Positions 15,532 through 34,858 of a DNA stretch of 64,000 bases are shown here, piece by piece. Location: NCBI GenBank assembly GCA_002319075.1, contig NVQB01000001.1, positions 5,270,001 through 5,334,000 on the forward strand. The letters run 5' to 3'. Every line of letters starts with the position of its first letter. The first letter of the stretch is position 1. The stretch is from Sphingobacteriaceae bacterium (GTDB lineage Bacteria; Bacteroidota; Bacteroidia; B-17B0; Aurantibacillaceae). The notes below the pieces were generated by a model. That model was not told the origin of the DNA and searched no databases. It saw nothing but the letters and a program-made list of their open reading frames with translations. The translations under genes and the position numbers were made by a program.

Positions 15532-15546
15532 CCCAATACCGTGCCA
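15532..15546 (-). promoter_or_regulatory. Sigma-54-type promoter TGGCACG-N4-TTGG
   Basis: Minus strand TGGCACGGTATTGGG: perfect -24 box TGGCACG, degenerate -12 box. It begins 49 bp before the ATG of the DUF1972 gene, and the TTCCA-N5-AGGAA palindrome lies 53 bp upstream. Confidence 0.6.
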
Positions 15547-15587
15547 GGGCTTAAATGCCTGGTAATAAAGGCTTATAGAACTAGTAG

Positions 15588-16715
15588 CTAAATTTTTATT
15601 CCAAAAACAGGAATTTTTTCCGATTTTAAGACCTTTACTTTCTCTTCTGCCAGAAGACTCATACTCGCCTCAGAAAAATTCTGTTCATTAAACTTAGTTA
15701 TCTGTATTAAGGCTTGTGTGCGCATTTTTGAGTAGAGTGACTGATCTTCCAGAAGTCGTTTGAGTTTAGCACACAAGTCATTGAGATCATTTGAATTCAC
15801 TTTAAAACCATTCTCACCTTCAGAGACAAGTTCTGTAATACCTCCCACCGTTGGAACAATGGCTGGCAAACCGTAAGCCATCCCTTCTATGATGGTAAGT
15901 CCGAACGTTTCTATCCAGCCCTGTGGCTTTGATAAATTAAGGATCACGTTTGCCCAGCGGTAAAAGGGATGAGTATCAGCATGCGTTGGATAGATCTCGA
16001 GATTGCGTGGAAGTACTGTATTTAAAAAGAAATTATCGATTTCCTGCTGAGCAGCATTTACTACTAACCTGAAATTGCAATCAGAGAGGTGTTGAGCCAG
16101 GCGTACAAATTCAAAGACTCCTTTGTATTCTTTTAGCGAGCAGATCATAAGCACATTTTTATTCAGCTCTTTCGGTTGGTTTCTTCGGTTGGCAATTTCC
16201 AGAAAGTCGTCCTCAATGGCGTTGTAGATAACCCTTGATTTTACAGTATCAAGCTGAAGATCTTTTTTAAGATAATGCGAAACAAACACAAGTTCGCTGG
16301 CGGTCCATTTTACGATCGCAAATAAAAACCGTTTAAAAATAGCCGGCTTCATAGATGTTTCATGGATGTGATAAATAACCCTGCACCCTTTTATTTTTCC
16401 TAATACTGCTGCGCCAAAAGGAAGCACTGTATTAACGTAAATGATGTCTTCTTTTTTTACGACAAAAAGTAATTTTAAAAGCAGCAGCAGCTGGCTTAGC
16501 ATTAAATTAAATAGACGGATTAAAGGATTAGGTGCGAGCTTGTACCAAAAAAAGGAGTAGTTAGCGCCTTTAATATCGCTAAGAAATCCTTTGCGGCCTC
16601 CGGAGGTAACAATGGTTACTTGCTTATTATTTTTGATCCAGATGTTTACGAGTTGCTTCAGAACTTTTGGACTGCCGCTATAATCGTTTAAGAGGTGAAA
16701 GGCGTATATTTTCAT
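15588..16715 (-). CDS. Glycosyltransferase family 4
   Basis: 375 residues, two Rossmann-like halves. N-terminus MKIYAFHLLNDYSGSPKVLKQL is the acceptor-side GT-B start; LVFVSHYLKKDL and VIYNAIEDDFLE mark the domain border, and ETFGLTIIEGMAYGLPAIV (about 280-300) holds the E-x7-E nucleotide-sugar motif. It presumably adds one sugar of the EPS repeat. It overlaps the upstream gene by 4 bp (ATGA arrangement), indicating translational coupling. Donor and linkage cannot be predicted. Confidence 0.88.
   Translation of the reverse strand: MKIYAFHLLNDYSGSPKVLKQLVNIWIKNNKQVTIVTSGGRKGFLSDIKGANYSFFWYKLAPNPLIRLFNLMLSQLLLLLKLLFVVKKEDIIYVNTVLPFGAAVLGKIKGCRVIYHIHETSMKPAIFKRFLFAIVKWTASELVFVSHYLKKDLQLDTVKSRVIYNAIEDDFLEIANRRNQPKELNKNVLMICSLKEYKGVFEFVRLAQHLSDCNFRLVVNAAQQEIDNFFLNTVLPRNLEIYPTHADTHPFYRWANVILNLSKPQGWIETFGLTIIEGMAYGLPAIVPTVGGITELVSEGENGFKVNSNDLNDLCAKLKRLLEDQSLYSKMRTQALIQITKFNEQNFSEASMSLLAEEKVKVLKSEKIPVFGIKI
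15599..15613. promoter_or_regulatory. Palindrome TTCCA-N5-AGGAA
   Basis: TTCC-N7-GGAA with one mismatch from the best form. It sits in the last codons of the preceding GT gene, 53 bp upstream of the -24 box at 15546, the same geometry as the site at 29380. Confidence 0.55.
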
Positions 16716-17947
16716 GCTACCAAGTTTTTATAAACGTTATATAATTGTTGACCACGGACGTTCCAATCAAAATGCGTTTCAAAATGCTGACGTGCGCAAA
16801 TACTCATTCTCAAAAGATTTTGTTTGTTGTTAAAAAGACCCGCTATAGCTTTTGCAAGGTGCGTTACCGTTTGCGCATAGCCATCTTCTTTAATGGCGAA
16901 GCCACACTCGTGATCAATGAATTCACCGGGACCACAATTATCCAGGCATATTACCGGTAGTCCCACTGAAAGTGCTTCTGCAACTACCATTCCCGCCCCT
17001 TCGTGCGAAGGAAACAAAAAGGCCGACGACGATTTAAATAACTCAAGAAGGTTGTCACGCTCTATCCACTCGATAAACTGCACTTGCTTTTCGATTTTAT
17101 TTTCGATGACTAAATTTTCATAGAAAGGTAATTCAGGACCGCTGCCTACAATAATGAGCTTACATTTCTCTTTGTTTTCTTCATCAACCGATGCAATGAA
17201 CTTTGAAAATGCAAGAATCGAGAGGTCAAATCCTTTCAGGGGCACCAATCTTCCGGCAGTAATAAGTGTAAATTTATCCGGTGCAAAATCTATAGAGAAG
17301 CCTACGTCCTGTGTTGCTACAGAAGGAATAACGCTGTACTTTTTACCTTTCAGATTTAAGTGTTCAGGCACCGATTTATTCATACACAAAATGTGATCTG
17401 CTTTATGAATGGTGGTATTAAGCGCGGGAGAAAATTTCCAGAATAGTTTTTTTACCAGCCAGGTTAGACGGTCTTTTACCCAGTAACTTTTTTTATATGA
17501 AGCAAGGTATTGTTTAGGAATTAAGGGATGGTGGCCCACAGGTCCCCACACGAATGGCTTGTCAAGCTTCCAGAGGTAGCTTGGAGTCCAGTCGTTATGA
17601 AAATTAAGATTATGAACAATGTCGAACTGTAAATTCTGCGCTTTTACAAACCCCGGTAAACCCTTTTGCCACAGGGTATAATAGAGCATAGCACCCCGGC
17701 TGCCTTTCTTCCAAAAGCGCATCCAGTAAGGCAGATCGAAATAAATAAAACGCATATTGCTGTATAACTCATCCGGATGCTCAGCCATATATTTCTCAAT
17801 CGCGGGCCGATTATTCTCGCGTGTTACCGCAATTACTTTGCTAAACCTGGCTATCTGGTAGACGAAATTCCAGCCCATGCCATCTTCCGAACCTTTGTAA
17901 GGATTTACTGCATAAGCGCTGGCCAGTATGGTTCTCATTTTTATCAT
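16712..17947 (-). CDS. Glycosyltransferase family 4
   Basis: 411 residues, GT-B fold. RTILASAYAVNPYKGSEDGMGW at the N-terminus gives the acceptor-domain Gly loop; the middle has WGPVGHHPLIPK; the donor domain shows ITAGRLVPLKGFD (about 229) and HEGAGMVVAEALSVGLPVI (about 314-332) with the E-x7-E type site. Begins 2 bp after the acyltransferase gene and overlaps the next GT by 4 bp. Likely adds a sugar to the EPS repeat unit on the cytoplasmic side; specificity unknown. Confidence 0.87.
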   Translation of the reverse strand: MIKMRTILASAYAVNPYKGSEDGMGWNFVYQIARFSKVIAVTRENNRPAIEKYMAEHPDELYSNMRFIYFDLPYWMRFWKKGSRGAMLYYTLWQKGLPGFVKAQNLQFDIVHNLNFHNDWTPSYLWKLDKPFVWGPVGHHPLIPKQYLASYKKSYWVKDRLTWLVKKLFWKFSPALNTTIHKADHILCMNKSVPEHLNLKGKKYSVIPSVATQDVGFSIDFAPDKFTLITAGRLVPLKGFDLSILAFSKFIASVDEENKEKCKLIIVGSGPELPFYENLVIENKIEKQVQFIEWIERDNLLELFKSSSAFLFPSHEGAGMVVAEALSVGLPVICLDNCGPGEFIDHECGFAIKEDGYAQTVTHLAKAIAGLFNNKQNLLRMSICARQHFETHFDWNVRGQQLYNVYKNLVA

Positions 17948-17948
17948 C

Positions 17949-18638
17949 TTAATTTCTTGTTTTAATTAATTTTGCAGGTAATCCACCAATAACACTGTTA
18001 GCGGGAAATGATTTTGTAACTACCGCGCCGGCGGCTATGATGCAGCCATCGCCGATCTCAACACCGTCGAGTACGGTTACTTTACTTCCGATCCAGCAAT
18101 TCTTTCCTATTTTTATTCCTTTGCGCGTTACATCCTGGAAGCGGATAGAAACGTTAAGGTCACTAGCAACGTGGTTTTCAGGATGACAGCTTAAATACTG
18201 GCCGATGATGCATTCGTCACCGATCTCCAGGCCACCTCCCCCACCCAGGTAGGCGAATTCACCAATGGAAACGTAATTGCCAATGTGGATCGAACTTCCC
18301 AGTTTATAGAGAGAGGTAGAAACAATTATTCTGCTGAATGCGCCAATTCCAGAACCATTGCCAATAGTTAATTCTCCTTTTCCAAGAGCGCTTATATAAA
18401 CATGCGAGCCAAACTTTACAAATTTTCCCCAGGTTATTTTTGGAAGATTAAAGAATCGCACACCGGGCTCGCGCAACATCCCTTTTGGATTTTTTAAAGC
18501 TAATAGTACACGCAAGCCACGCAGGAGATTAAATACCTGTAACCAGATAAACTGCAGGAGGGCAAAATTATTTAAGCCTGTATCGAAACTAAAGTTAGGA
18601 TTGCGCAGTCTTATTATTTTCTGAAGCAGGGTTTTCAT
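17949..18638 (-). CDS. Left-handed beta-helix (hexapeptide) acyltransferase
   Basis: 229 residues. From about 85 on, hexapeptide repeats ([LIV]-G-x4) are seen: LTIGNGSGIGAFSRIIVS, IHIGNYVSIGEFAYLG, LEIGDECIIGQYLSCHPENH, then IKIGKNCWIGSKVTVLDGVEIGDGCIIAAGAVVTKS. The PENH segment carries a likely catalytic His. The first 60 residues are hydrophobic/basic. Most such enzymes in EPS loci O-acetylate a sugar using acetyl-CoA. The ATG at 18638 follows the upstream stop by 2 bp; a TTG two codons earlier is less likely. Part of the second EPS transcription unit. Confidence 0.88.
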   Translation of the reverse strand: MKTLLQKIIRLRNPNFSFDTGLNNFALLQFIWLQVFNLLRGLRVLLALKNPKGMLREPGVRFFNLPKITWGKFVKFGSHVYISALGKGELTIGNGSGIGAFSRIIVSTSLYKLGSSIHIGNYVSIGEFAYLGGGGGLEIGDECIIGQYLSCHPENHVASDLNVSIRFQDVTRKGIKIGKNCWIGSKVTVLDGVEIGDGCIIAAGAVVTKSFPANSVIGGLPAKLIKTRN

Positions 18639-18640
18639 GA

Positions 18641-21058
18641 TCAAGCTGCTTTTGTTGTGAGATCGTTAAAAATTGTGTCGAGGGTGGTGTTTAGCTCAAT
18701 ATTCTCAATGCTTGCATAATGCCCCTTTACGTTTTCATCTTTAAGAGATTGAAAAAGTTTAATGTACCTGGAATTAAGCTCCTCTATTGTTTTTGTATCC
18801 AGTTCTTTTTTACGGGCAAGAATCACTTCTGGTTTTGCGTAAAGAAAAAAGTTGAACTTAGGTCGCATCAGGAAACGAAATCCTCCGCGAATAAACGAAG
18901 TGGGAAGGATGATGTTACTGCGTTTACTGTCGTTTATAAAATCGTAATAGTAGCGATCGTACAATACAACGTAGCCGCGGCTCACGTATTTAAAATACAC
19001 TACAAACTGACCGAATAGATAGTCTGTGTAATAGTAGCTGAAACGTAATAATGATGAAAGAGCGCTTTTGTTACTTCCCTGGCGTGGCAGTCTGTTACCT
19101 GCTTCTTTTTCAGCAATAACTTTTCCTTTTGTTAGCGCGCTCAAGATGGGCAATACAGAGGGGCGGTGACGAATGACTACCACTCTTTTGCGGAGCTGTT
19201 TTTCAATTCTGTGTTTTACTTTTTCGATAACGGTAGATTTGCCCGCACCGTCTACGCCACTAAATGTAATGATCATGCCATTGAAGCGGAAGAAGCTGCG
19301 CATTGTATCTAACATATAGTTAAGGCGATTTTTTAAAGCACTGAAACCTTTGTTCACTTTATTTGATTTTAAAACAAGTCTTATGTAAGCAGCTTTATTT
19401 CCATGGTCGTCAATAAAAAAAGGAAGCAGTGCCTGGTCAATTTTCTGACCGGATTTTTCAAGCAAGTCAGCATATACTTTATATTTTTCAGGAATATTGC
19501 ATTCGTTAAGTGCGTAAAATAAACCAATGTAGCGCACGTTATCGAGTGTTTCAAGACAACGAATGCCAAAGGCGTTTACACTGGCATTTGCCAATAGCGT
19601 TTTTGCATCGAGCATTACCAGGTCTTTTCTTTTTATATTCCAGATCAAGTCAAGGCTTAGCATACTCCCGTCTTTGCAGATCAGCTGGTGATTAGCCATA
19701 AACGAGCTCTTTGTTGTTTTTAGTTTGCTCACCAGTGGATGGTTTAAAAGATATTTTTTTAACGTTTTGTTTAAAGATTCATCTACACATAGATCCACAT
19801 CAGAATATTTGTTGATGTTTTCAGGGAGAACATTCGGAAATTTTATCGCTGCGTAATTTTTCGCATTCAGGAAATCGAAAAGATCCAACAGAAGTACTTC
19901 TCTTTGTGTCTCCCAATTCAAAGCAAACTCGCTTAAGGCATCGTTCCAGGTGCTTAGTAACCAATTTACCTGTGTGTGCCAATTTTTTTGCTGTGAATAG
20001 ATCTGCAGATAATTTACGCAATTAAAAACGAGATAAAGTTGCAGGTACTCTTCTTTTGTGCCCTTGTCAAACTTAGAGAGCTTTGAAAAAGTGTTAGCAT
20101 CAATTTTCAGATCTATTTCATTTTTTATCTCCGACCAGCTTTTACGGTCTACGAGAATACCTTGTTGTATAATAAAATGAAACGCATCAAAGCCAAGTGG
20201 TCTCATAGGACTACTCAATTCCCAATCATAGATATGAAGTTTGTTATCGCACTCAAACATATTCCAGGGAGTAAAATCGCCATGACTTAAAGAGATTTCA
20301 GTTTCCGAAGTTTCATTGGTATGCCACATCATTTTTTCCAGTTTTCTAATCATCCCTTTTGGAATGCGCGGATCATTAAGCTCTTTCAAATAATTAAGAT
20401 CCTTTTTTAGTTTCGTCCAGCTACTTAGTTCATGAAGTGGTGTAAGAAAAGAGGATATTTCATTTAACTCCATCAATGCTGAAATATGCAGGGGAGTAAA
20501 ATGTTTTATTCTTACCCCGTCTTCAGAAATATCCGACAGCTCAAGAGTAGCTTCCGTTACCTTGATGGTGTCGGGGAAACAAAAATTGCGGATGTTAGAA
20601 GCGAACAGTCTGTCGAGCGCCTGTACTTCGTTTTGTATTAAGCGGGCAGCAGTTTCGGTAGTCGCAATTTTTTTGAAAGTGCCAAGGCCGTTAATCTCAT
20701 TGTATAGAACCGCTTTGTTATTAATGCCGGTAGTGCCTGTAAAAAGTGCCCAGTTTTTAAAACGCATAGCCAGCTGTGACTCCGCGCTGTGCTCTTCCAC
20801 GAATAAAGATCTGCTTTTAAAAACTAACTTATGCAGGCGGCATAAAAAGATCATTTTCACCAACAAATAAAATAAACCCGACTTGAGGCTCCCCAGGTTA
20901 TAAAACTTCAGGAACAAAGGAGTTTTTAGTTCAGCTGGCCATACCCAGCGGATAGAGCCGTCGGGGTTAAGTATGCTTAACAATTTTATTTCCTTTGAAT
21001 GTATGGCAGATTTTGTTTCCGAAACACTGTACCCTAATTTTTCGAAGATAGCTTTCAT
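18641..21058 (-). CDS. Fusion: APH-type kinase, nucleotidyltransferase-like domain, thymidylate kinase-like domain
   Basis: 805 residues, three parts. (1) About 80-360: an aminoglycoside/choline phosphotransferase-like fold with LSHGDFTPWNMF near 257 (catalytic Asp) and LHIYDWELSSP (metal-binding Asp). (2) About 395-500: a segment with YSDVDLCVD near 417, reminiscent of the nucleotidyltransferase D-x-D signature. (3) About 590-805: a P-loop domain starting ITFSGVDGAGKSTVI (Walker A near 600), with VLYDRYYYDFIND in the position of the thymidylate kinase DR-Y motif. No membrane segment. The fusion sits at the head of the second EPS transcription unit, so a role in phosphorylating sugars or lipid carriers is possible, but I cannot assign a substrate. 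Confidence 0.75.
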   Translation of the reverse strand: MKAIFEKLGYSVSETKSAIHSKEIKLLSILNPDGSIRWVWPAELKTPLFLKFYNLGSLKSGLFYLLVKMIFLCRLHKLVFKSRSLFVEEHSAESQLAMRFKNWALFTGTTGINNKAVLYNEINGLGTFKKIATTETAARLIQNEVQALDRLFASNIRNFCFPDTIKVTEATLELSDISEDGVRIKHFTPLHISALMELNEISSFLTPLHELSSWTKLKKDLNYLKELNDPRIPKGMIRKLEKMMWHTNETSETEISLSHGDFTPWNMFECDNKLHIYDWELSSPMRPLGFDAFHFIIQQGILVDRKSWSEIKNEIDLKIDANTFSKLSKFDKGTKEEYLQLYLVFNCVNYLQIYSQQKNWHTQVNWLLSTWNDALSEFALNWETQREVLLLDLFDFLNAKNYAAIKFPNVLPENINKYSDVDLCVDESLNKTLKKYLLNHPLVSKLKTTKSSFMANHQLICKDGSMLSLDLIWNIKRKDLVMLDAKTLLANASVNAFGIRCLETLDNVRYIGLFYALNECNIPEKYKVYADLLEKSGQKIDQALLPFFIDDHGNKAAYIRLVLKSNKVNKGFSALKNRLNYMLDTMRSFFRFNGMIITFSGVDGAGKSTVIEKVKHRIEKQLRKRVVVIRHRPSVLPILSALTKGKVIAEKEAGNRLPRQGSNKSALSSLLRFSYYYTDYLFGQFVVYFKYVSRGYVVLYDRYYYDFINDSKRSNIILPTSFIRGGFRFLMRPKFNFFLYAKPEVILARKKELDTKTIEELNSRYIKLFQSLKDENVKGHYASIENIELNTTLDTIFNDLTTKAA

Positions 21059-21085
21059 GAGTTGTTGATTTGATACTTATACCTT

Positions 21086-21100
21086 CCAAGTAGCTTGCCA
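21086..21100 (-). promoter_or_regulatory. Sigma-54-type promoter TGGCAAG-N4-TTGG
   Basis: Minus strand TGGCAAGCTACTTGG: GG and G spaced as in -24/-12 promoters. It begins 42 bp before the ATG at 21058; the palindrome at 21155 is 55 bp upstream. Confidence 0.6.
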
Positions 21101-21154: not shown

Positions 21155-21169
21155 TTCCAATATTTGGAA
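21155..21169. promoter_or_regulatory. Palindrome TTCCA-N5-TGGAA
   Basis: Perfect arms around ATATT, in the 139-bp gap that separates the wzy-like gene from the fusion-kinase gene. Fixed 55-bp distance to the sigma-54-like element at 21100. Confidence 0.65.
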
Positions 21170-21197
21170 AACTAAAACGTTTGTTGGAATTAAACGA

Positions 21198-22490
21198 TTA
21201 AAAAGAAAGCTCTGGTCTTTTTCTTTTCAGGTAAAACTTCTGGCTTAATGTGAGGTGTGCAGAGTCTTTGAAGGAGACAGAAAAAATAAGGAGCTGGTAA
21301 AACAGAATGCCGTAGTTAGACTCGCCGAAAATACCAAATTCGGTAAATGAATTGATAACAATGGGAATAAGAATTCCGAAGACCATTAATTTTTTTTCTT
21401 TCTCAGCCGAAAGAAATCCGCGTATAGTAAAAATGATCTGGAAAATAACAATCGTAAGGCCAATAAAACCCAAACTCATCAACACCTGCATAAAAGTATT
21501 GTGTGTCATTTTACCTGGATATGTGTGAGTGCTTTGAAAATATTCTTTATAATCAATGCGCATAAAACCAAAGCCAAGCAGCGGCTCTCTTGGTAAGCCT
21601 TCATTGATGAGCGCAGTCCAAAAAGGTAAGCGACCGGTCATGCTCATCACCTCTTCCATTTTTTTGCTATCACCCCCTTTTAAAAAAACCTGGTTTACAG
21701 CTGCAGGAATGATCAGTAATACGCCCCCAATAATAGCGGCTTTGAGCTTTTTATTTTTCGATTGATTGATGTGAAAAAAAATAATCAACAAGCCACCGAT
21801 TAATGAACTCCTTGAGCCCGTCATGTACAGCGCATAAAAGATAACCAGCAGTTTGAACAAGGTCCACACTTTATTGTGATTTCTGTAGAGGTCAAAAATG
21901 AGACAAGCAACACCGGTACCTGCCAGCATTCCCAGTTCGTTGGGATTCATGATGTAGCCGCCCAGGCGCGATTCTTTTCCTCCGTCTGTTAACCGAAAAA
22001 AAGTATCAGGATCAACCCACATGCCGATTACAAAAACGCTAATGAGAATAAAAACAGTATTTCCCAGCTGGTGATACATTCTGATTTTATGACCCGGAAA
22101 ATATACATCCAGCAACATTAAACTCTTTACAAAGAAAAAGGCAAAGACCAGACTTTGAGTAGTCATTAACCACTGCAGGGCGCTGAAGCCTGGATTGGTA
22201 CTCCAGGTAAAGGACGCAAGACCAAGCAGTAAATACCCCAGGTATAGAACCGGGGCAAATACATTTATGTACTTTAACGAATCGGCGGCTCCATAGCGGA
22301 TAATTTTTTTATACGCCACAATCGAAGAGATCATTACCCCCATTCGTCCTACTACTTTTATTCCCCTTGTAATAATCACATTTTCGCTCCAGGTAAAAAA
22401 GCAAGCCACCATTAATAATAAGATCACAAAAAGAAAACGATCCATCTTCTTCAGGAACTCAGCATGCTCTTTATTTGAATCTGTCGTCAT
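21198..22490 (-). CDS. O-antigen polymerase/ligase-like membrane protein (Wzy type)
   Basis: 430 residues with about ten membrane segments and one larger extracytoplasmic loop (about 265-320). The TGSRSSLIGGLLIIFF segment is typical of the O-antigen ligase/polymerase superfamily, and a G-FGF-type stretch (REPLLGFGFMRIDY) lies in the loop, with a His-containing QSTHTYPGKMTHNTFMQ just after it. In a Wzx/Wzy-type locus this protein polymerises flipped repeat units on the periplasmic face. The ATG at 22490 is preceded by an in-frame GTG; the gene starts 5 bp after the previous stop, last in the first EPS transcription unit. Confidence 0.85.
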   Translation of the reverse strand: MTTDSNKEHAEFLKKMDRFLFVILLLMVACFFTWSENVIITRGIKVVGRMGVMISSIVAYKKIIRYGAADSLKYINVFAPVLYLGYLLLGLASFTWSTNPGFSALQWLMTTQSLVFAFFFVKSLMLLDVYFPGHKIRMYHQLGNTVFILISVFVIGMWVDPDTFFRLTDGGKESRLGGYIMNPNELGMLAGTGVACLIFDLYRNHNKVWTLFKLLVIFYALYMTGSRSSLIGGLLIIFFHINQSKNKKLKAAIIGGVLLIIPAAVNQVFLKGGDSKKMEEVMSMTGRLPFWTALINEGLPREPLLGFGFMRIDYKEYFQSTHTYPGKMTHNTFMQVLMSLGFIGLTIVIFQIIFTIRGFLSAEKEKKLMVFGILIPIVINSFTEFGIFGESNYGILFYQLLIFSVSFKDSAHLTLSQKFYLKRKRPELSF

Positions 22491-22495
22491 CACTT

Positions 22496-23608
22496 TTATG
22501 CGGCGTAAAGCGTTCCGAAATCCCTGAGGATTTTTTTCCAGTTAAATTCGCTGCTTACCATTTTTTGTGCATTATCCGAATATGCTTCAAGTTTATTTTC
22601 CTGCCAGAGAGCGTAAAAGGTTTGGAGTGCGCTGCATATTGAAGGAGCATCATTGTTCGGCAATACTATTCCCGATCTATAACGCGTTACTTGTTCTGCC
22701 ACATTTGTTGCTTTGCTTATCATACAAGGAATGCCAAGGCTCGAGGCTTCCAGTACTGATGAAGGTAATCCTTCGTTCCTTGATGGATGCGCAAACAAAT
22801 GCATTTTGCTAATCAACAGATCTTTCTCTTTTCCAAAAACGCCTCCAAATAAAATCACTTTATCACGTAAATTTTTACGCCTTACTTCCAGCTCAAACTT
22901 TTTCCTGTCTGTACCGTCACCAATGATCCACAGTTTGCTATGACTATGGGTTTTATTAAATGTCTCAAATGCATTGAGTAAAAGATCGAGCCCTTTAGTA
23001 TACACATCTAACCTGCCAACAAAGCCAACAATAAATTCTGAGCCTTTTTTATATTCATGTTCTTCTCTAACGGTGTGTACTTCGTATCCGTAAGGAAGCA
23101 GGCAGGTTTTGCCGGACTGGTAAATTTTACCAAGTCCCTCCACTTCGCTTTGTCCAATGCAATGAATTTTTGAAGCCCTTTTAAGCATAGGCTTTTCGAA
23201 TAAACTAAAATAAAGGCGTTTTGTGAAAAAGCTTCGGTTCATGGCTATGGTGTTATAAGCCCCATGTGGCGTGAATACAAAGGTTAACTTGTTTTTTGCA
23301 AACAGTTTCGAAAGTGAGGAGAAGGCAGGAATCCATCCTCCATGTACATGAAAGATCGTATCCTTACCCTTTGCTTCAATAGCTTTAACCAGGCGTGCAT
23401 CCACTTTAAAAGGATTGCGGTGCGATTTGTAGAGACGCGTGATAAAATTACGTTCGTCGTAATTTACTGTTGTTTCTTTGGTAATACCCCAAACACTCAC
23501 GTTGATACCCGCATTGAACTGGTAAGTTGCCAACTGATAAACCACTTTGTTTACCCCGTTCATGCGGTTGGGATTAGCTTTTCCTAAAACGACGTGTATT
23601 ATTTCCAT
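22496..23608 (-). CDS. Glycosyltransferase family 4
   Basis: 370 residues. GT-B features: EIIHVVLGKANPNRMNGVNKVV at the N-terminus, FHVHGGWIPAF, VGFVGRLDVYTKGLDLLL (about 193-210) and HPSRNEGLPSSVLEASSLGIPCM (about 278-300) with the E-x7-E site. It overlaps the flippase gene by 10 bp, indicating tight coupling. A sugar-adding enzyme of the EPS repeat; donor unknown. Confidence 0.88.
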   Translation of the reverse strand: MEIIHVVLGKANPNRMNGVNKVVYQLATYQFNAGINVSVWGITKETTVNYDERNFITRLYKSHRNPFKVDARLVKAIEAKGKDTIFHVHGGWIPAFSSLSKLFAKNKLTFVFTPHGAYNTIAMNRSFFTKRLYFSLFEKPMLKRASKIHCIGQSEVEGLGKIYQSGKTCLLPYGYEVHTVREEHEYKKGSEFIVGFVGRLDVYTKGLDLLLNAFETFNKTHSHSKLWIIGDGTDRKKFELEVRRKNLRDKVILFGGVFGKEKDLLISKMHLFAHPSRNEGLPSSVLEASSLGIPCMISKATNVAEQVTRYRSGIVLPNNDAPSICSALQTFYALWQENKLEAYSDNAQKMVSSEFNWKKILRDFGTLYAA

Positions 23609-27014: not shown

Positions 27015-27019
27015 GTTTT

Positions 27020-27763
27020 TTAAAATAAGCCAAAAATAATTGCTGCTGCGCTAATCGCTGTTGTAAAAGGAATAATGGTTGCTATGCGTTTATCAAATGT
27101 TTTGTATTTTTTGGAAGGCACAATGATGACATCACCGGGTTGTAAAGCAAGATTTTGATTCAGATAGTCTTTGTCGTGAGTCAGGTCAATGTTGGTTACC
27201 CAAACATCGGCGCCATGCTGACGTAGTACTTTCACTTTTTTAAGGTTGGCATAAAATTCAAAACCTCCTACACGGGCTACCATGTCTAATAAATTGTTGT
27301 GTTCTTTATCAACAGTTATAACACCCGGACTTTTAACTTCACCTAATAAAGTAATTTGTTTGTTCAATACCTTCACATCTACTACAGGATTCAAGATCCA
27401 CTGAGCCAACATTTTTTTTAAGGTGTCTTTTAGTTCTATTACTGTTTTTCCGAGGACCTGAAATTTGCCAAGTTTTGGGAGTTCAATATTTCCGTTTGCA
27501 TCCACCAGCAGCCACTTGCCGTACACTTCGTTTGAATTATAAATTCCGTAGGTAGAACCTACACTCACTTCATCTTGTCCCCATACGCTGATGGAGATCT
27601 TATCGTCCTCGCGGATGGTGTATTGGTAAACTGCATTGTAGGCAAATACCGAATCTGCAGCATGCTGCCCGGCCTTTACGGTAGCGCGGTTCTGAACAAG
27701 CAGGTTTTGGTTTTTACAGGAAACCACTACCAGGATGGTAAGTATGTAAAGAATAGTTTTCAT
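27020..27763 (-). CDS. Wza-like outer-membrane polysaccharide export lipoprotein
   Basis: 247 residues. Lipoprotein signal peptide MKTILYILTILVVVSC with the lipobox Cys16. The polysaccharide-export domain is at about 45-130 (YQYTIREDDKISISVWG, then LLVDANGNIELPKLGKF), followed by an SLBB domain (ITLLGEVKSPGVITV, LLDMVARVGGFEFYANL). A C-terminal hydrophobic stretch (TIIPFTTAISAAAIIFGLF) may insert in a membrane. It should form the outer-membrane channel for EPS together with the co-polymerase encoded 5 bp downstream. It starts 1 bp after the receiver gene. Confidence 0.9.
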   Translation of the reverse strand: MKTILYILTILVVVSCKNQNLLVQNRATVKAGQHAADSVFAYNAVYQYTIREDDKISISVWGQDEVSVGSTYGIYNSNEVYGKWLLVDANGNIELPKLGKFQVLGKTVIELKDTLKKMLAQWILNPVVDVKVLNKQITLLGEVKSPGVITVDKEHNNLLDMVARVGGFEFYANLKKVKVLRQHGADVWVTNIDLTHDKDYLNQNLALQPGDVIIVPSKKYKTFDKRIATIIPFTTAISAAAIIFGLF

Positions 27764-27764: not shown

Positions 27765-28199
27765 CTAAAAAATGGAAAGTATTTTTTGAAGAAAAGAAGG
27801 ATTACTATTTCTAATCTCCTCTTTGATAAGAAAAATGCGGTCTATGACTTTCTGCATTTTAGTAGCTTCGTCATCGCCTTTAATGATGTAATCGAAAGCG
27901 CCATATTTTAAAGCTTCTACAGCCGTTTTCATATTTTCCTGCGCCGATACCATCACCACATAAATATTTGGGTCTACGCGTTTTATTTTTTTCAGTACTT
28001 CAAAACCGGTGAGCACATCCATGTTGTGATCGATAAAAATAATTTCCGGTTTCTGATGCAGATTATTCAAACAATCTACTCCGTTTGAAAAAATAGAAAT
28101 ATTGCTGAAGCCTAAATTGAGGATGTTTTGCTGGTACATATTAAGGCTAAAAGCATCGTCGTCTACTAAAAATATTTTTATGTCTTGCTGATTTTCCAT
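27765..28199 (-). CDS. Stand-alone receiver-domain response regulator
   Basis: 144 residues, a single receiver fold without output domain. Acidic pocket DDD13-15, phospho-acceptor Asp57 in IIFIDHNMD, a Ser at 89 in VVMVSAQ, and the Lys in YIIKGDD. It heads the EPS export operon, so a CheY-like role in controlling export or gliding is plausible, but its partner kinase is unknown. The ATG at 28199 is preferred over a TTG 11 codons upstream because a sigma-54-like promoter (28228-28242) would start transcription downstream of that TTG. Confidence 0.87.
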   Translation of the reverse strand: MENQQDIKIFLVDDDAFSLNMYQQNILNLGFSNISIFSNGVDCLNNLHQKPEIIFIDHNMDVLTGFEVLKKIKRVDPNIYVVMVSAQENMKTAVEALKYGAFDYIIKGDDEATKMQKVIDRIFLIKEEIRNSNPSFLQKILSIF

Positions 28200-28227
28200 G
28201 GTTATAGTGTTTTGTGTTTGATACAAA

Positions 28228-28242
28228 GCCAATAGAATGCCG
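28228..28242 (-). promoter_or_regulatory. Sigma-54-type promoter CGGCATT-N4-TGGC
   Basis: Minus strand CGGCATTCTATTGGC: GG-N10-GC, the sigma-54 spacing. It begins 43 bp before the ATG of the receiver gene; the palindrome at 28297 is 55 bp upstream. Confidence 0.6.
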
Positions 28243-28296
28243 TAATTACAATTAACTGATTGCGTGATGTTTGCGATTTCTATAGGACCCGGACTT

Positions 28297-28311
28297 TTCC
28301 AGAAAATGGAA
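28297..28311. promoter_or_regulatory. Palindrome TTCCA-N5-TGGAA
   Basis: Perfect arms around GAAAA, followed at 28316-28320 by a further TTCCA half-site. It is 98 bp upstream of the first gene of the EPS export operon. Confidence 0.65.
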
Positions 28312-28802: not shown

Positions 28803-29285
28803 TCATCTTGAAACGTAATACACTTTTTCGCGGGAGGCGCATTCTTTTTTAGATTCTTTCAGTTCCTGGCCGCAGCAACTTATGTAATTATAGTCTCTGA
28901 TAGTTTTGTCGTAATATATTTTGCCCGCGTAAAGCTCGGGTTCCTGAATGTTTTTGACGGCTAACGGTTCTAAGGTAACAATGAAATTAATTTCACACCT
29001 GTAATCTTCTTTACTAAAAGTTGAAATAGTAATGGTTTTAGATCTGCACCCGGGTTTTGAGAAAGTGATTGTATAACAGTCGTTATATCCCAGCTTGAAT
29101 TTCAGGTCAGAACATTTTCCTACCTGGATCATCTCGTAAGAGTTAGAGAGTGTATAATAAGCCGTTGTTGTTTCATTGTCGTTATTCTTTATGTGCCCTT
29201 TCACAAGTAATGCCTGGGCGGGTACAGCTAACGATACACCCAGGAGGACAATGAGAATGCTAATTTTTAAGTAGATTGTTTTCAT
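28803..29285 (-). CDS. Small secreted protein, unknown function
   Basis: 160 residues. A clear signal peptide (MKTIYLKISILIVLLGVSLAVPAQA) is followed by a beta-rich region of about 70 residues (LLVKGHIKNNDNETTTAYYT to CEINFIVTLEP) that resembles carboxypeptidase regulatory-like or other Ig-like sandwich domains, and a Cys-containing tail (YISCCGQELKES). The start was placed at the ATG at 29285, before the signal peptide; an upstream in-frame start 34 codons earlier lacks a signal and would lie beyond the inferred promoter. It is predicted to be periplasmic or surface exposed and shares the control elements of the EPS operons. Confidence 0.7.
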   Translation of the reverse strand: MKTIYLKISILIVLLGVSLAVPAQALLVKGHIKNNDNETTTAYYTLSNSYEMIQVGKCSDLKFKLGYNDCYTITFSKPGCRSKTITISTFSKEDYRCEINFIVTLEPLAVKNIQEPELYAGKIYYDKTIRDYNYISCCGQELKESKKECASREKVYYVSR

Positions 29286-29312
29286 GATATTGTATTTTAT
29301 ATCATTTGATTT

Positions 29313-29327
29313 ACAGTTTGCGTGCCT
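29313..29327 (-). promoter_or_regulatory. Sigma-54-type promoter AGGCACG-N4-CTGT
   Basis: Minus strand AGGCACGCAAACTGT: good -24, weak -12. It begins 42 bp before the ATG at 29285; a TTCC-N7-GGAA palindrome lies 53 bp upstream. Confidence 0.5.
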
Positions 29328-29379
29328 TTTTATAACTCCTTCATTATCAAATGCAATTACGAATGCGATTTTATTTTCA

Positions 29380-29394
29380 TTCCGCATTCGGGAA
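29380..29394. promoter_or_regulatory. Palindrome TTCC-N7-GGAA
   Basis: TTCCGCATTCGGGAA: outer arms match the family, inner position 5 differs. It lies between the divergent small genes, 53 bp from the -24 box at 29327. Confidence 0.5.
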
Positions 29395-29450
29395 ATTAGT
29401 CCATTTTTGACAGGTAAACTGCTAACACGCTACAAGGCTTTATAAACGGC

Positions 29451-29885
29451 ATGATCAGTCCGCACGACATTAAAGAAGTCGCTTTGCTTTACGAGCCTGG
29501 TAAACCTATTAAAGTTCTAAATGAATTTTTGGCCCTGGAAAAAAAAGACGAAGAAATGGCTATGCAGACAAGCTGCAATTTAAAACTCCTGATGCGCGTC
29601 AGTCAATGCATTTTAAGTTGTAAAGACAAGGACACACGTTTTATGGTGCACTACTTCCTTGGCCTTCTGCTTGATAAAAATTTTGATAAAAGTTATAGTT
29701 ATCAGTGGCAGGAACTAAAGAGCGTGTTGTGGTATTGCAGCTTTATGAAAAACACACAAAGCTTTAAAGCATTTAAAACAAAATTAGAGAGTACACACTT
29801 TAGAACCTGTATTAGTACCTGCATAAAAACCGATGCCCTGAGCGAAAGCCGGAGGCGGCAGTTGTTTGGAGAAAACGCTGCCTGA
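29451..29885 (+). CDS. Hypothetical protein (144 residues)
   Basis: Not recognised. An alpha-helical, soluble-looking protein with several Cys (about 42, 53, 56, 96, 119, 123). No signal peptide, metal-binding motif or known domain is visible. It is divergent from the small secreted protein and ends at a strong bidirectional hairpin before the T9SS gene. Amino-acid composition is natural and the frame is long, so I treat it as a real gene of unknown function. Confidence 0.55.
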   Translation: MISPHDIKEVALLYEPGKPIKVLNEFLALEKKDEEMAMQTSCNLKLLMRVSQCILSCKDKDTRFMVHYFLGLLLDKNFDKSYSYQWQELKSVLWYCSFMKNTQSFKAFKTKLESTHFRTCISTCIKTDALSESRRRQLFGENAA

Positions 29886-30006
29886 AGCAAGCAGGTTTAT
29901 TGGCTAATACCAGCCGTCGCAGACCATAGCATTCAGATAAACTACAGTGACTTGTGACATTAATCTTCTTTGTTTTTAATTTCTCTCATCAGTGCCTGGA
30001 ATGCAA

Positions 30007-30034
30007 AAATAAGAAGATTAAAATCTTCTTATTT
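30007..30034. terminator. Strong bidirectional terminator hairpin
   Basis: AAATAAGAAGATT (30007-30019) pairs perfectly with AATCTTCTTATTT (30022-30034) over a 2-base loop. It sits between the convergent hypothetical gene and the giant T9SS gene. Confidence 0.8.
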
Positions 30035-30118
30035 AAGCCTATTTGTAACTACTAAGCATTTTTATGGAAAATCTGATCTTATACCGACCGGAAAAATCAC
30101 CGAAGGTTTGCGTTTCCC

Positions 30119-33100
30119 CTACCTCACAATTACAAGCTTTTTAAAGTGATACTGTCCATTACCATCCTGCACACGCAATTGATAAACACCGCTGGAAACA
30201 GTTTGCGCCTGGAATGTGATTTTGGAAGTGCGATTTACATTTAAACGTTTTATTAATTGCCCGTTAAGATCAAAGACTTCTGCTTTTTCGATGATGCTGC
30301 CCGACTGATATTGTTCTTTGTCGGAGAGCAGTTGCAGGGTTACATCGCTGTTGCCAGGATTCGGGAATACTAACAGAGCTTCACTTGTATATTCATAAGT
30401 TACTGTATTAAGAACAGCGTTCGTGCTAAGTGCATCTTCATAATCAAAAAAGATTGCGGCACTGTTTGGAATAAAAGCACCTTCTTCCACATCCTCTTTC
30501 ACCGTTACTGAAAATATCAGGTAGCCTTGCGAACCATTGAAATTGGACGAAGAGTCTTCTAAATTAATGTTTTCAAAACGGACATTCACTTCACCATTTT
30601 CTGAGTAGTTGAACTCACAAGGATGTGAGCTTGAAACAAAGGCAATACTACTAAAACTTAAACCTTCCGGTAGCCGGTCGCTGATAGAAATGTTAGAAGC
30701 CATGTAATTACCCACGTTCTGAAAACGCACTTTGTAAAAAAGAGTAGTTCCTTTTTTCACAAAGCCCTGATCCGCTTCCCCTCGCGGAGAAACCACAAGG
30801 TCATTGGGGTCAATGGCCCCTACTACTTCGGCAGAGTATGTTCTGGAATTATCGAGTGGCGCAAGATCGTTGCTATAAGTAGCTGTTGCGGTGAAGTTGA
30901 GGCTGCTGCCAATAGCTCTCGAAAGATAAACAGAGTCCATCAGGCTGAATGTTTTTACCTGCCCGGGTTTCAACGTATCCACCAGCCAGGTGTAAATGCC
31001 ATTATTGAAAGTAGTATAAGATGGCTGACTTGATTTTACGGTCATATAACCTCCAAAGCTTAGATTCAAAGGCACATTATAAGCCTCGCTGCTTCCATTG
31101 TTTTGAACCTGCAGGTAGACACTATTTTTAAATCCTCTTCTCATAGCGGTAGTTGCCAAGTCTACTTTTAAATCAACGCCGCTTACAGCAGATGTAAGAG
31201 GCAGCGCCACGGAATAGGAACTATTTACAGATTGAACAGATACCTGTGCAACCGGGCATCCTGCCTGCCATACTCCCTGTGGTTGGAGCGCTAAACTATA
31301 TACACCTACCGGAAGAGACGCTCTGAATTCTCCTTTGGCATTGGATATGGTGTGAAAATTGTTGCCGAGATCCACTCTCAAGCCGGCGATAGTGTTTTCA
31401 TTTCCATCTTTTACGCAATTGTTATTGCTGTCGTAAAAAGTTACTCCTGTTATTACTCCACCGCTTGGCTCAGTAATGGTATTATAGGTGTTGGCGGTTA
31501 CCTGCGTCAAATACTGCTTTTGTCCCGAAGGCCACAGAACCACAATTGAATCCATTACCGTATTTATGCCTAAGCCAAAATGGCAACGGATACTGCTCTG
31601 CCCGCCTAAACCACTTTGTGAATTTACTTCACGCGATTGCCAAACGCCTCCTGCTTTAATTTGCACCCGGGCGCCTATCGCATCTTTATTGGACAAAGAA
31701 CCTGCTAAACGAATACTAGTCCAATTGTTAGCATTGCCATTATTGGTGAAATAATAATTAATCTGACCTGAATGCGTTGGTACAAAAAGATCGAGATCAC
31801 CATCTTTATCCGCATCAAAAAAATAATTGCCCATACTGTTTCCAAAATTGGCAGCTATTATCTCATCTTGTTTTTTAGTAAAATTACCAGCCCCGTCATT
31901 CAGGTAAAGAAATTTCACACCCTTGTCGTTAGTTACATAAAGATCTAAATCCATATCGTTATCTAAATCTGCAAACGAGCATCCATGGGAGTGTCCACCA
32001 CTGTTGACTACAGGGTCGCCTGTAATCTTTGTAAACCCACCAGACTTGTTATTGAGGTATAGAAAATCATTTTCATTAGAGGCATTAGAAACAAAAAGAT
32101 CCAGCCAACCATCATTATTTATATCTCCCCAGCAACTCCCCACAGAATTCCCTCCATCGTTACATACAATTAAATTGCTTTGTCTGGTAAACGTTCCATT
32201 TCCATTATTCAGAAACAGTGAATTATTAACGCCTTCACCATTAGGAACAAACAAATCCTGATCTCCGTCGTTATCATAATCGGCCCATGAAGAACCAAGT
32301 GACATATAAGATTCAGTGCTCATAGGATTATTTGTGACCAACGAAAATGTACCATTACCATTATTATGATAAAGTTCATTAAACTTTGTGGGCATGTAGT
32401 TGCTCAGGAAAATATCAAGAAATCCATCATTGTCATAATCTGCGAAAGAACCGCTGTGAAAGTAAGCCACGTGATCGGCCACCGGGCTGTTCGACAAATT
32501 GGTGAAGCTGCCATTTCCGTTATTACGGTAAAGTGAATTAGGCTTTTTTGTGTTGTTAACCACAAGTACATCTTTGTCGCCGTCATTGTCGTAGTCGGCC
32601 CATGACGAACAGATGCTGGCAGCAGCGTCACTTGTGAGCTTAGCAATAGTTGATTTAATAAATGTATTATTGCCGGTGTTGCGATAGTAGATATTGGCAA
32701 CCGTTGCGTTCTTTACGGTGAGATAGATATCTTCTAAGCCATCGTTATCCACATCTACTATGTTTGCGGTCCATGAATCTGTAAGGTCTGCCCCGAAGTT
32801 TGCTATTGAGAACATCAGATTCGAAGTGTTGGCAGAGATAATTTGAATTCCTTCTACAGAAGAAGATTGCTGTAAGGTGCCGTTAATTTTACCGGATATG
32901 TTTGTTTCTGCACTAACAACTGTATTGTTTGGAAGCAGGCTGCCATTATTGTACATGACTTGTGCAATTACCTGGGTTTGTACCACATAACTATGAGTAG
33001 CCAGTAATGAATCCTGAACTGCAAAATTGACAAGTGTTTGAGATGTTTGTTCAGTGATTGTTCCATTTACAGAAGTATTAGTTGTTTGATCTTTTAATAC

Positions 33101-34747
33101 CGAAGATATTACCTTTGCCCCGCTGCCCACTATAACTGACACGTATGCACTATCAATGCTAAGCGGAGAGCTAAACACTATCTGCGAAGAAACCATAACC
33201 GTGTCTCCTGGTGCAGCATGATCGGCTGTTGAGCTTGAAATTTGTTTGTAACTCTGTTCCAGTGAAGATCCAAAATACATCATCCAGTTGTCGTTAAAAT
33301 TAGTATTCATCACACTGATAGGTTTGTTGGATGTGATTTTCAAATACGGTCGTTCTGGTCCGGAGTTATTGCCAGTACCGTTGTAAATAGACTGCCATTC
33401 GCTCAGCGTTAAAAAACAATCTACATAACGACCCGGTAAAACTGTATATGTTCTGTTTATGTCAATTCCATTACTATAAGCGTCTTTTACAGAAACAATA
33501 CAAGTATCATTGAATGAAAATAAATAGGCGTGCGTTACCATTTGACCAAATAATGCATTGGTAAAAGGATCTCTCACATTTTCCTCGTGACCCGGAGGTG
33601 CCATGTAAATTAGAAAGTTGTTACCAGAACTTGTACCCAGATCGGAACTCGCCATGGTACCTATGTCTGCAGTGCCCGGGCTGCCTGTTTCCAACCAATT
33701 GGCTTCAAAAACAGATACTTTTTTTCCGGCACTGCATCTTACTCTAAAACTGGTAGAGTAATTTACGCTGCCATTATTTTTACCCACCCAGTCAACGGCT
33801 GCACCCGAATTAACGGTCCAGGTTTTCATACTAACCCAGCTTCCCGCATAGTATCTTTCAAGAATTATACTATTAGAATTATCCCAGGACGCAATTCTTA
33901 TTTCCTGTTCGCCCTTTGTACCACTTTGAAAGGGAACCCCAAAATAAAAAAGTTCTCCCGCAGAGCTTCCATTTGCTGAAGGCACATATCCGCCACCGTC
34001 GCGCTCATTGCCATATAAAGCGCCATACTGAAGTGTGATAGGTTTGCTGGCTTCAATGACATAGGTGTCGCCTGAACTCATAAGATCCCGTCCTTCACCT
34101 GAGTAATAAATGATATCCTGCCCTACCATTAACATTTTCTGCACTACCACAGTCGAACTTGCAGTGCTGATATTCGTATAACCTGTAATAAGGGTTGGCG
34201 CAAAAGAGATTTTACGAATGGTAATCACTGTGCTGTCAAAATAGGCAAAAGTATTTAAGTCTCTTTTTGAGCTGGTAATTTGGGGCGCATAAACAATAAA
34301 TTTTTGTCCCAGGCCTGATTTGGTTGTTGAGGGCACCCAGTCGTGCTGCCAATCGCTGTTAGTAGATTGAGAGGCGTAAATAAGTTTATCGGAAGTAACC
34401 ATAAAATAGTCGCCATCTTGTTTTAAGGTTCCACCTGATGCATACTTCGCATCATCGTTGATGCCATTGTCCTTAATGTATAAGATATAAGACTGCCCTG
34501 CCATAAGCACACCCGTTTTTGTATCATCTGTATCGCCATCGGCACCATCGTCAATGATAGAAAAATGTGTGCTGTCTTGAATGGCAGTAATAACCAAACA
34601 TACGTCGCGATGAACAGCATCATTATTTGGTGGAACAAAAATATTGAACCAGGTAGATGGTTCGCCGGTAGCATTAGCGAATGCAAAGCTTAAAACAAAA
34701 AGAAACGTAAGAATTTGTTTTTTTAGTGTTGTGGCAATCTGTATCAT
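30119..34747 (-). CDS. Giant T9SS-secreted surface protein with FG-GAP repeats
   Basis: 1542 residues. Signal peptide at 1-26 (ILTFLFVLSFAFANA). About 60-500: IgGFc-binding-like region (WQHDWVPSTTKSGLGQKF). About 650-1000: FG-GAP/VCBS repeats with Ca-binding motifs such as DYDNDGDKDVLV, DYDNDGFLDIFLS and DYDNDGDQDLFVP (seven or more blades). About 1015-1089: ASPIC/UnbV domain (DAIGARVQIKAGG, WPSGQKQYL). About 1102: SdrD-B-like (FYDSNNNCVKDGNE). About 1315-1440: DUF11-like. About 1459-1542: T9SS type A sorting domain (VFPNPGNSDVTLQL to HFKKLVIVR). It should cross the outer membrane via T9SS and act as an adhesin or matrix protein. It shares the EPS control elements, so a function in the extracellular matrix is a fair inference. 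Confidence 0.93.
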   Translation of the reverse strand: MIQIATTLKKQILTFLFVLSFAFANATGEPSTWFNIFVPPNNDAVHRDVCLVITAIQDSTHFSIIDDGADGDTDDTKTGVLMAGQSYILYIKDNGINDDAKYASGGTLKQDGDYFMVTSDKLIYASQSTNSDWQHDWVPSTTKSGLGQKFIVYAPQITSSKRDLNTFAYFDSTVITIRKISFAPTLITGYTNISTASSTVVVQKMLMVGQDIIYYSGEGRDLMSSGDTYVIEASKPITLQYGALYGNERDGGGYVPSANGSSAGELFYFGVPFQSGTKGEQEIRIASWDNSNSIILERYYAGSWVSMKTWTVNSGAAVDWVGKNNGSVNYSTSFRVRCSAGKKVSVFEANWLETGSPGTADIGTMASSDLGTSSGNNFLIYMAPPGHEENVRDPFTNALFGQMVTHAYLFSFNDTCIVSVKDAYSNGIDINRTYTVLPGRYVDCFLTLSEWQSIYNGTGNNSGPERPYLKITSNKPISVMNTNFNDNWMMYFGSSLEQSYKQISSSTADHAAPGDTVMVSSQIVFSSPLSIDSAYVSVIVGSGAKVISSVLKDQTTNTSVNGTITEQTSQTLVNFAVQDSLLATHSYVVQTQVIAQVMYNNGSLLPNNTVVSAETNISGKINGTLQQSSSVEGIQIISANTSNLMFSIANFGADLTDSWTANIVDVDNDGLEDIYLTVKNATVANIYYRNTGNNTFIKSTIAKLTSDAAASICSSWADYDNDGDKDVLVVNNTKKPNSLYRNNGNGSFTNLSNSPVADHVAYFHSGSFADYDNDGFLDIFLSNYMPTKFNELYHNNGNGTFSLVTNNPMSTESYMSLGSSWADYDNDGDQDLFVPNGEGVNNSLFLNNGNGTFTRQSNLIVCNDGGNSVGSCWGDINNDGWLDLFVSNASNENDFLYLNNKSGGFTKITGDPVVNSGGHSHGCSFADLDNDMDLDLYVTNDKGVKFLYLNDGAGNFTKKQDEIIAANFGNSMGNYFFDADKDGDLDLFVPTHSGQINYYFTNNGNANNWTSIRLAGSLSNKDAIGARVQIKAGGVWQSREVNSQSGLGGQSSIRCHFGLGINTVMDSIVVLWPSGQKQYLTQVTANTYNTITEPSGGVITGVTFYDSNNNCVKDGNENTIAGLRVDLGNNFHTISNAKGEFRASLPVGVYSLALQPQGVWQAGCPVAQVSVQSVNSSYSVALPLTSAVSGVDLKVDLATTAMRRGFKNSVYLQVQNNGSSEAYNVPLNLSFGGYMTVKSSQPSYTTFNNGIYTWLVDTLKPGQVKTFSLMDSVYLSRAIGSSLNFTATATYSNDLAPLDNSRTYSAEVVGAIDPNDLVVSPRGEADQGFVKKGTTLFYKVRFQNVGNYMASNISISDRLPEGLSFSSIAFVSSSHPCEFNYSENGEVNVRFENINLEDSSSNFNGSQGYLIFSVTVKEDVEEGAFIPNSAAIFFDYEDALSTNAVLNTVTYEYTSEALLVFPNPGNSDVTLQLLSDKEQYQSGSIIEKAEVFDLNGQLIKRLNVNRTSKITFQAQTVSSGVYQLRVQDGNGQYHFKKLVIVR

Positions 34748-34774
34748 GTGTAATAAATTTCTTAATCCTTTAGT

Positions 34775-34789
34775 ATAAAAACCGGGCCA
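34775..34789 (-). promoter_or_regulatory. Sigma-54-like promoter TGGCCCG-N4
   Basis: Minus strand TGGCCCGGTTTTTAT: -24 box fits, -12 box is poor (TTAT rather than TTGC). It begins 42 bp before the ATG at 34747 and 55 bp below the palindrome. Confidence 0.45.
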
Positions 34790-34843
34790 AACATGTAAGA
34801 TGCTTATAAATAGAGCTTTGCAAGAAAATACTTAAGCATTGAA

Positions 34844-34858
34844 TTCCAAAAACTGGAA
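34844..34858. promoter_or_regulatory. Palindrome TTCCA-N5-TGGAA
   Basis: Perfect arms around AAAAC, 97 bp upstream of the T9SS protein start. Confidence 0.65.

Follow-up and report, generated by a model that had tools for sequence, protein, structure and literature searches.

Five promoters in the window analysed here, a stretch of 64,000 nucleotides from a Sphingobacteriaceae bacterium (G000:C1:5270001-5334000 of a 5.65-Mb genome; 38.8% G+C), share an order and a spacing of elements that very probably identify them as sigma-54 promoters. Toward its gene, each of the five has a TTCC-N7-GGAA palindrome, 52 or 54 bases, a word at -24 (TGGC, CGGC or AGGC) and an ATG. We consider it highly likely that these promoters are driven through the palindrome, at distances set by the turn of the helix, by the response regulator encoded at 39829-41181 or by a close paralog, and that their output is exopolysaccharide (EPS) and secreted proteins. 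By the sequence features tested, the system is a sigma-54 regulon. The sequence shows the sites, their spacing and its helical quantisation, the dependence of the motif on a clade of activators, a recurring set of targets, and the sisterhood of a stand-alone receiver with the receiver of the activator.

Geometry of the five promoters

All five pairs of palindrome and -24 element lie on the minus strand, where the first-pass annotation had placed them. At promoter 1, the palindrome (15599..15613, inside the 3' end of the open reading frame (ORF) 15588..16715) precedes the -24/-12 element TGGCACGGTATTGGGC (15531..15546) and an ATG at 15497. At promoter 2, the palindrome (21155..21169), with an extra TTCC 20 bp upstream, precedes TGGCAAGCTACTTGGA (21085..21100) and an ATG at 21058. 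The same features are found at 28297..28311, 28227..28242 (CGGCATTCTATTGGCT) and 28199 for promoter 3, at 29380..29394, 29312..29327 (AGGCACGCAAACTGTA) and 29285 for promoter 4, and at 34844..34858, 34774..34789 (TGGCCCGGTTTTTATA) and 34747 for promoter 5. Measured from the low end of the palindrome to the first base of the -24 element (15599 to 15546, 21155 to 21100, 28297 to 28242, 29380 to 29327 and 34844 to 34789), the claimed differences of 53, 55, 55, 53 and 55 were recovered, which correspond to 52 or 54 intervening bases. The distances from that base to the ATG (49, 42, 43, 42 and 42 bp for promoters 1 to 5) were also reproduced, as was the presence of the GGC of the -24 box in all five. 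The five -12 words had been read correctly but listed in the wrong order: by coordinate, they are TGGG (15546), TTGG (21100), TGGC (28242), CTGT (29327) and TTAT (34789). The G of the -12 box is in register in four promoters, and the fifth (34789) has an A instead. A strict textbook sigma-54 pattern matches none of the five window promoters.

The window contains seven exact copies of TTCC-N7-GGAA, not just five. The other two, at 13149 and 41258, have no in-phase GGC element toward a gene. The palindrome at 13149-13163, which is perfect, sits between a WecA-like gene and a PAS/GAF kinase gene (8879..12973). The possibility that the phasing arose by chance, deemed unlikely from the outset, was rejected: over any pair of offsets the best agreement among the seven palindromes was five, and in 5000 draws of seven random points it never exceeded four, a value reached only four times. 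Copying of a single promoter within the region would account for an order and a spacing common to five neighbouring promoters. Yet, the five spacers cannot be aligned (15-41% ungapped identity), which argues against a recent duplication, and copying is not expected to produce the discrete helical steps seen in other genomes. We thus rejected this explanation as well, and regard it as extremely improbable. We also judged spurious a plus-strand composite at 29380 (gap of 52), because the start codon of ORF 29451 shares bases with the GGC word.

The geometry had also been used to fix start codons and leader lengths. The former use is sound, because three of the five start codons (those of 14280.., 27765.. 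and 28803..) differ from those of the longest ORFs. Sigma-54 transcripts usually start about 12 nt beyond the -12 box, and under this rule the leaders would be as short as claimed (16-23 nt). Short leaders also find support in other genomes, where the distance between the -24 element and the ATG peaks at 40-43 (26 of 80).

The palindrome and its spacing in other genomes

We analysed about 100 loci encoding relatives of the activator, namely 20 regions of the same family and 80 named loci (of 202 confirmed). The two sets have loci in common. Near-identical sites were collapsed in the tests on gaps but not in the counts of palindromes per locus, and the p-values assume independence of rows that are in fact related. 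In the 80 named loci, TTCC-Nk-GGAA occurs 147 times with k=7, against 19-64 times at the 20 other spacers between 0 and 20, and the longer TTCCA-N5-TGGAA occurs 78 times, against 1-10 for other spacers. An ortholog of the activator (E <= 1e-140) was found in 16 of 198 genomes across the phylum, the present one included, and the named matches include Pontibacter, Flavobacterium, Chryseobacterium, Pedobacter, Spirosoma, Hymenobacter and Algoriphagus. Among the strains with the module are Spirosoma fluviale (L180), Pedobacter ureilyticus (L156) and Flavobacterium limicola (L172).

The gap between the palindrome and a -24-like word peaks at 53-54, 64-66, 72-75 and 85. We chose these peaks after viewing the histogram, and the weight is therefore carried by the test for a period and by control motifs, not by the number of peaks. 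Gaps between 40 and 130 follow a 10.5-bp period (R = 0.46, n=169, p ~1e-16), also after dereplication (R = 0.43, n=138, p ~6e-12), and six control motifs in the same DNA do not (p 0.25-0.89). The histogram and the test before dereplication include the gap-65 composites of six Chryseobacterium-or-similar loci (L144, L146, L151, L154, L155 and L162) that appear to lie inside the Wza gene; five of these also belong to the 66 composites used below for the anatomy, the spacers and the targets. Hence, the sigma-54 identity and the constant phasing proposed from the window find support elsewhere, since the composite recurs at the same spacing or whole helical turns away, and the allowed spacing appears to be a helical series rather than one constant. 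The sets used for the -12 G, for the spacers and for part of the composite anatomy were selected on a GGC word at the peak gaps, so that their own gap histograms are no evidence for phasing. The -12 G was not a selection criterion, and it is present in 49 of 58 composites.

These results bear on the idea that the palindrome serves another DNA-binding protein, and that these are ordinary sigma-A promoters of Bacteroidota with a coincidental GGC. One of the five promoters does have a poor -12 box, and the palindrome upstream of the activator gene lies beside a TATATTTG box, both of which would fit this idea. However, it leaves aside the helical quantisation relative to the -24 element, the unselected -12 G and the association of the motif with one clade of activators, and we consider it very unlikely.

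Two further elements accompany the composite in some loci. The first is another half-site 20 bp upstream: among 66 promoter-like composites, TTCC occurs at -20 in 11 and GGAA at -9 in 16, over a background mean of 0.5-0.7 per position. Exact palindromes also come in pairs, 20 bp apart (8 pairs) or 18 bp apart (3 pairs), in overlapping loci where pairs may repeat. The second is an exact match to the IHF consensus, WATCARNNNNTTR. Of 53 dereplicated spacers, 20 contain it; in 200 shuffles preserving base composition only, the mean was 0.8 and the maximum 4. Its 22 occurrences start, relative to -24, most often at -19 in one orientation (8) or at -31 in the other (6), which is one core read both ways; other starts are at -29 (2), -30, -32, -35, -39, -41 and -53. 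In the window, the match is AATCAGTTAATTG at promoter 3 (28249..28261, minus strand), 19 bp upstream of the first base of the -24 element. The genome encodes four genes of the HU/IHF family, and a protein of this family may use the element as a bend site.

The activator and its association with the motif

The proposed activator (39829..41181, minus strand) has the tested features of NtrC-type enhancer-binding proteins, to judge from its domains: a receiver (PF00072) and a sigma-54 interaction domain (PF00158), both above cut-off, and a C-terminal helix-turn-helix seen in the alignment and in a Pfam match below cut-off. It contains the string GAFTGA, as do 85 of 101 aligned activator rows. Its genome has eight strong and three weak matches to sigma-54 activators. 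The same genome encodes two sigma-54 genes (G000:C1:2410762-2411235 and 3265633-3266109).

The excess of palindromes follows the similarity of the activator. When the latter is at least 65% identical to that of the window (25 loci), the k=7 spacing is found 54 times, against a mean of 8.0 at 17 other spacers; the values are 100 against 23.5 at 60-65% identity (53 loci) and 16 against 1.9 at 55-60% (11 loci). Below 55% (11 loci, L096-L106) there is no k=7 excess (5 against a mean of 4.6). The residue after the Tyr of the recognition helix is N (49), K (34) or R (4) in the 90 rows with at least 55% identity, with gaps in 3, and R in 11 of 11 below. A stricter composite gave 25 matches in 40 genomes of the family. 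In the seven genomes with an ortholog at least 69% identical, all 11 matches lie outside ORFs, with gaps of 53, 65 or 73. The remaining 33 genomes account for the other 14 matches, which are all inside ORFs. From these patterns we infer strongly that the activator pairs with the palindrome. At one of these loci (L228) the palindromes are in tandem, with gaps of 73 and 53. In L222, L224, L226, L241, L245 and L228 (around position 1500), all from close relatives, the gene behind the phased composite encodes a member of a family of small proteins (111-115 aa) that look secreted.

A scan of the genome of the window for the composite returned 36 matches, 30 of them with loci. In 27 of these 30, the palindrome is contained in an open frame of at least 120 codons; the exceptions are L212 (gap of 69, within a frame of 115 codons), L215 and L216. 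L215 precedes the gene of a paralogous activator (G000:C1:4135371-4136699), 66% identical to that of the window, and L216 precedes that of a second stand-alone receiver, located after the gene of the paralog's kinase; in both, the GGC is 55 bases away. The paralogous activator, its hybrid kinase and this receiver form a second copy of the module (L219:7287-12371; G000:C1 ~4135287-4140371). Among the six matches without loci, five fall within the window, where they correspond to four of its five promoters and to a reverse reading of 21155, and one is at 4957746.

The paralog might therefore drive the promoters of the window in place of the neighbouring activator, or both might do so, since the paralog's own gene and its kinase-linked receiver gene have the same palindrome. 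Still, the activator of the window adjoins the EPS units, and its gene order with the kinase and the FIST gene recurs beside orthologs. We regard an action of the paralog as rather unlikely, and favor the activator encoded at 39829-41181.

The palindrome upstream of this activator's gene (41258..41272, minus strand, beside TATATTTG) suggests a possible autoregulation. In the same direction, and like the activator upstream of the five units, are the genes of a FIST protein (38669..39811; PF08495 and PF10442), a possible sensor, and of a hybrid histidine kinase with PAS domains, HisKA, HATPase, a receiver and a weak Hpt match (35223..38666; E 0.006 for the Hpt), all on the minus strand. Among 81 loci (the 80 named and the window), the gene after the activator encodes FIST in 23 and H-NOX in 7, with both together in none. 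The H-NOX gene occupies the place of FIST in L135, L136, L140, L143, L145, L149 and L167. A hybrid-kinase-like gene lies within 2.2 kb of the activator in 71 of the 81, and nine contigs end within 2.5 kb. Hypothetically, nitric oxide could provide the input through either FIST or H-NOX. Beyond these genes, positions 42871-63108 of the window are dense in signalling genes, judged from translations to include further PAS kinases, hybrid kinases and CheR-, CheB-, CheW-, CheA- and methyl-accepting-like proteins.

The stand-alone receiver

The third promoter precedes the gene of a stand-alone receiver of 144 aa (27765..28199, minus strand; identified with Pfam and a tree), with which the EPS export unit begins. 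Such receivers are the commonest target of the composite. When the targets of the 66 promoter-like composites are sorted by simple text patterns, 36 are such receivers, and the remaining targets are a DUF1972 transferase (5), FG-GAP proteins (4), an 805-aa protein (4), positions within Wza (5, from the Wza-internal sites mentioned above) and other genes (12). Conversely, 66 distinct small receivers were collected by similarity; the palindrome occurs in the 300 bp before 48 of them, and 37 of the 66 have a phased -24 word. The palindrome precedes 23 of the 25 receivers followed by Wza and 13 of the 16 divergent from the activator.

In a tree of receivers, 32 of 35 stand-alone receivers form the sister group of the full set of 30 activator receivers; the joint branch has a support of 100/98, and this clade stands apart from the receivers of kinases and of other activators. 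The three others, which are weakly similar, group elsewhere, and the tree has several long branches. The tree sampled 35 of 67 stand-alone and 30 of 82 activator receivers (those of the window and of the paralog fixed, the others random), with outgroups drawn from these loci and this genome only. Given this sisterhood, the gene that opens the EPS export unit would appear to be an ancient copy of the activator's own receiver, detached from it.

What the detached receiver does can be thought of in two ways. It may be a positive component of a relay, in analogy with EpsW, a single-domain receiver needed for EPS in Myxococcus xanthus according to the available parts of PMC4671073. The conservation of the phospho-acceptor Asp in 67 of 67 stand-alone receivers fits this role (a Lys is kept in 64 of 67). 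On the other hand, the receiver is sister to that of the activator and under the activator's apparent promoter, and competition for phosphate fits these traits at least as well. A relay is a serious contender, if a little short of even chances. Because the activator appears to drive the receiver gene, we lean slightly to feedback on the phosphorelay.

Genes of the five units

All genes of these units are on the minus strand. Unit 1 begins with a DUF1972/GT4 glycosyltransferase (14280..15497, by Pfam), also found behind phased sites in other genomes, and continues with a WecA-like undecaprenyl-phosphate sugar transferase (13190..14293; below the cut-off of NCBIfam ECA_wecA). The first gene of unit 2 encodes a protein of 805 aa with weak choline-kinase-like and thymidylate-kinase-like stretches (18641..21058), followed by a hexapeptide transferase and two GT4 glycosyltransferases (15588..18644). 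Behind the receiver, unit 3 encodes Wza-like, Wzc-like, membrane, GT4 and Wzy-like proteins (21198..27763). The membrane protein had no family match in a Pfam search, and from its position it would be a flippase. Unit 4 is a small protein (28803..29285) with a start resembling a signal peptide, as judged by eye, and no family match in profile searches. Unit 5 is an FG-GAP protein of 1542 aa (30119..34747) with a sorting tail of the type IX secretion system (T9SS; PF18962 and TIGR04183).

Proposed mechanism

From these data we infer binding, activation, bending, signal and feedback as follows. The neighboring hybrid kinase, with a FIST sensor (elsewhere H-NOX), probably sets the phosphorylation of the activator encoded at 39829-41181. 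Dimers of this activator, or of its close paralog elsewhere in the genome, would sit on TTCC-N7-GGAA, centred near -87 from the inferred start and sometimes on a second site 20 bp upstream. The spacer DNA would then loop and bring the ATPase of the activator to the sigma-54 polymerase, in some cases aided by a bend at an IHF-like site roughly 19 bp before the -24 element, and the promoters would be switched on. The bound face must match the polymerase, hence a spacing of mainly whole helical turns (53, 65, 73, 85). The assembly and export of EPS would in this way be coupled to secreted proteins, those sorted by the T9SS among them, and the matrix would form at the same time as its proteins. 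Finally, the detached receiver, encoded at the head of the Wza/Wzc unit, probably exerts feedback on the phosphorelay.

Several observations weigh against this account. Promoter 5 (34789) lacks the -12 G, and the exact IHF consensus is present at one of the five window promoters (promoter 3). A promoter-like phased composite was seen in 42 of the 80 named loci, in the DNA examined, and only 31 of 81 activators have the palindrome in front of their gene. Of the 27 receivers that lack both an adjacent Wza gene and a divergent arrangement with the activator, 12 are preceded by this palindrome. Among the 33 family genomes whose matches all fall inside ORFs, 13 carry a more distant relative of the activator (51-60% identity). 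Hence, activator and motif are not simply linked, and a relative alone is insufficient. Finally, either of two paralogous activators could act in the window.

A broader proposal is tentative, and in our view possible rather than probable. The system might be a module of Bacteroidota in which the receiver was copied early and became free-standing under the activator's promoter, often at the head of the EPS export unit, where it would act as a limiter, by competition or relay. FIST and H-NOX would be interchangeable in a matrix switch gated by nitric oxide or heme, and its promoters would tolerate whole helical turns only. If this is true, turning on matrix synthesis also makes a competitor for the activator's phosphate, or a relay of it, and thus a built-in limiter. 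The detached receiver makes the choice between competition and relay directly testable. The natural spacing series (53, 65, 73, 85) bears on the relative orientation that activator and polymerase require. Any genome can be scanned for the candidate regulator and its operator, for the promoter grammar and for the listed targets.

Comparison with known systems

Sigma-54 control of EPS and of T9SS cargo in Bacteroidota is little described in the open-access literature. Our search of open-access PubMed Central (PMC), a scope that leaves out most subscription papers, gave no recognisable description of this regulon, and a text search there for the motif returned a single unrelated paper, on copper. 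The papers compared below are cited for the parts available to us. Sigma-54 has been argued before to be a general controller of the cell exterior (PMC3162934). For the sigma-54 regulon SM4 of Flavobacterium psychrophilum, of the same phylum, -24/-12 promoters were mapped, and gliding and exported proteins are among the targets (PMC9723704). Unlike in the regulon of the window, these targets are largely chaperones and gliding genes; no such regulon is described in those parts of the paper, and the string TTCC is absent from its text.

On the input side, FIST (NosP/NahK) and H-NOX proteins are known types of nitric oxide sensors encoded beside kinases (PMC11784011, PMC8738867). The pairs NosP/NahK and H-NOX/kinase place a heme-based sensor of nitric oxide beside a histidine kinase, an arrangement that the present system may share, and they control biofilm (PMC11784011, PMC8738867). 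Unlike NosP, the FIST protein of the window scores 50.3 bits against the NosP model NF041558, far below its cut-off of 450, and the output here would be a sigma-54 activator.

On the output side, Nla24/EpsI and EpsW of Myxococcus xanthus combine an NtrC-like regulator with a single-domain receiver, both needed there for EPS (PMC7484181, PMC4671073). It is by this analogy that the receiver of the window could relay phosphate. EpsW differs from it as a substrate of the chemosensory kinase DifE (PMC4671073), and the available parts of these papers were not seen to describe an origin of EpsW from the receiver of the regulator, or its control by the regulator (PMC7484181, PMC4671073).

A parallel in architecture is found in Proteobacteria, where, in the sigma-54 element of PEP-CTERM genes, a spacer of 62.8 +- 10.6 separates a -24/-12 motif from another motif upstream of it (PMC1569441). 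There, PrsK/PrsR is likewise a kinase with an NtrC-like regulator, and couples EPS to sorted surface proteins (PMC1569441, PMC9850573). We saw no link of the window system to PEP-CTERM, and made no search for PEP-CTERM proteins or exosortase (EpsH). Unlike PrsR, the activator encoded at 39829-41181 falls short of the PrsR model TIGR02915 (347.0 bits for a cut-off of 502.6), and the system would differ from PrsR and PEP-CTERM by its TTCC-N7-GGAA operator, its spacing in helical steps, its T9SS-tailed cargo and its stand-alone receiver.

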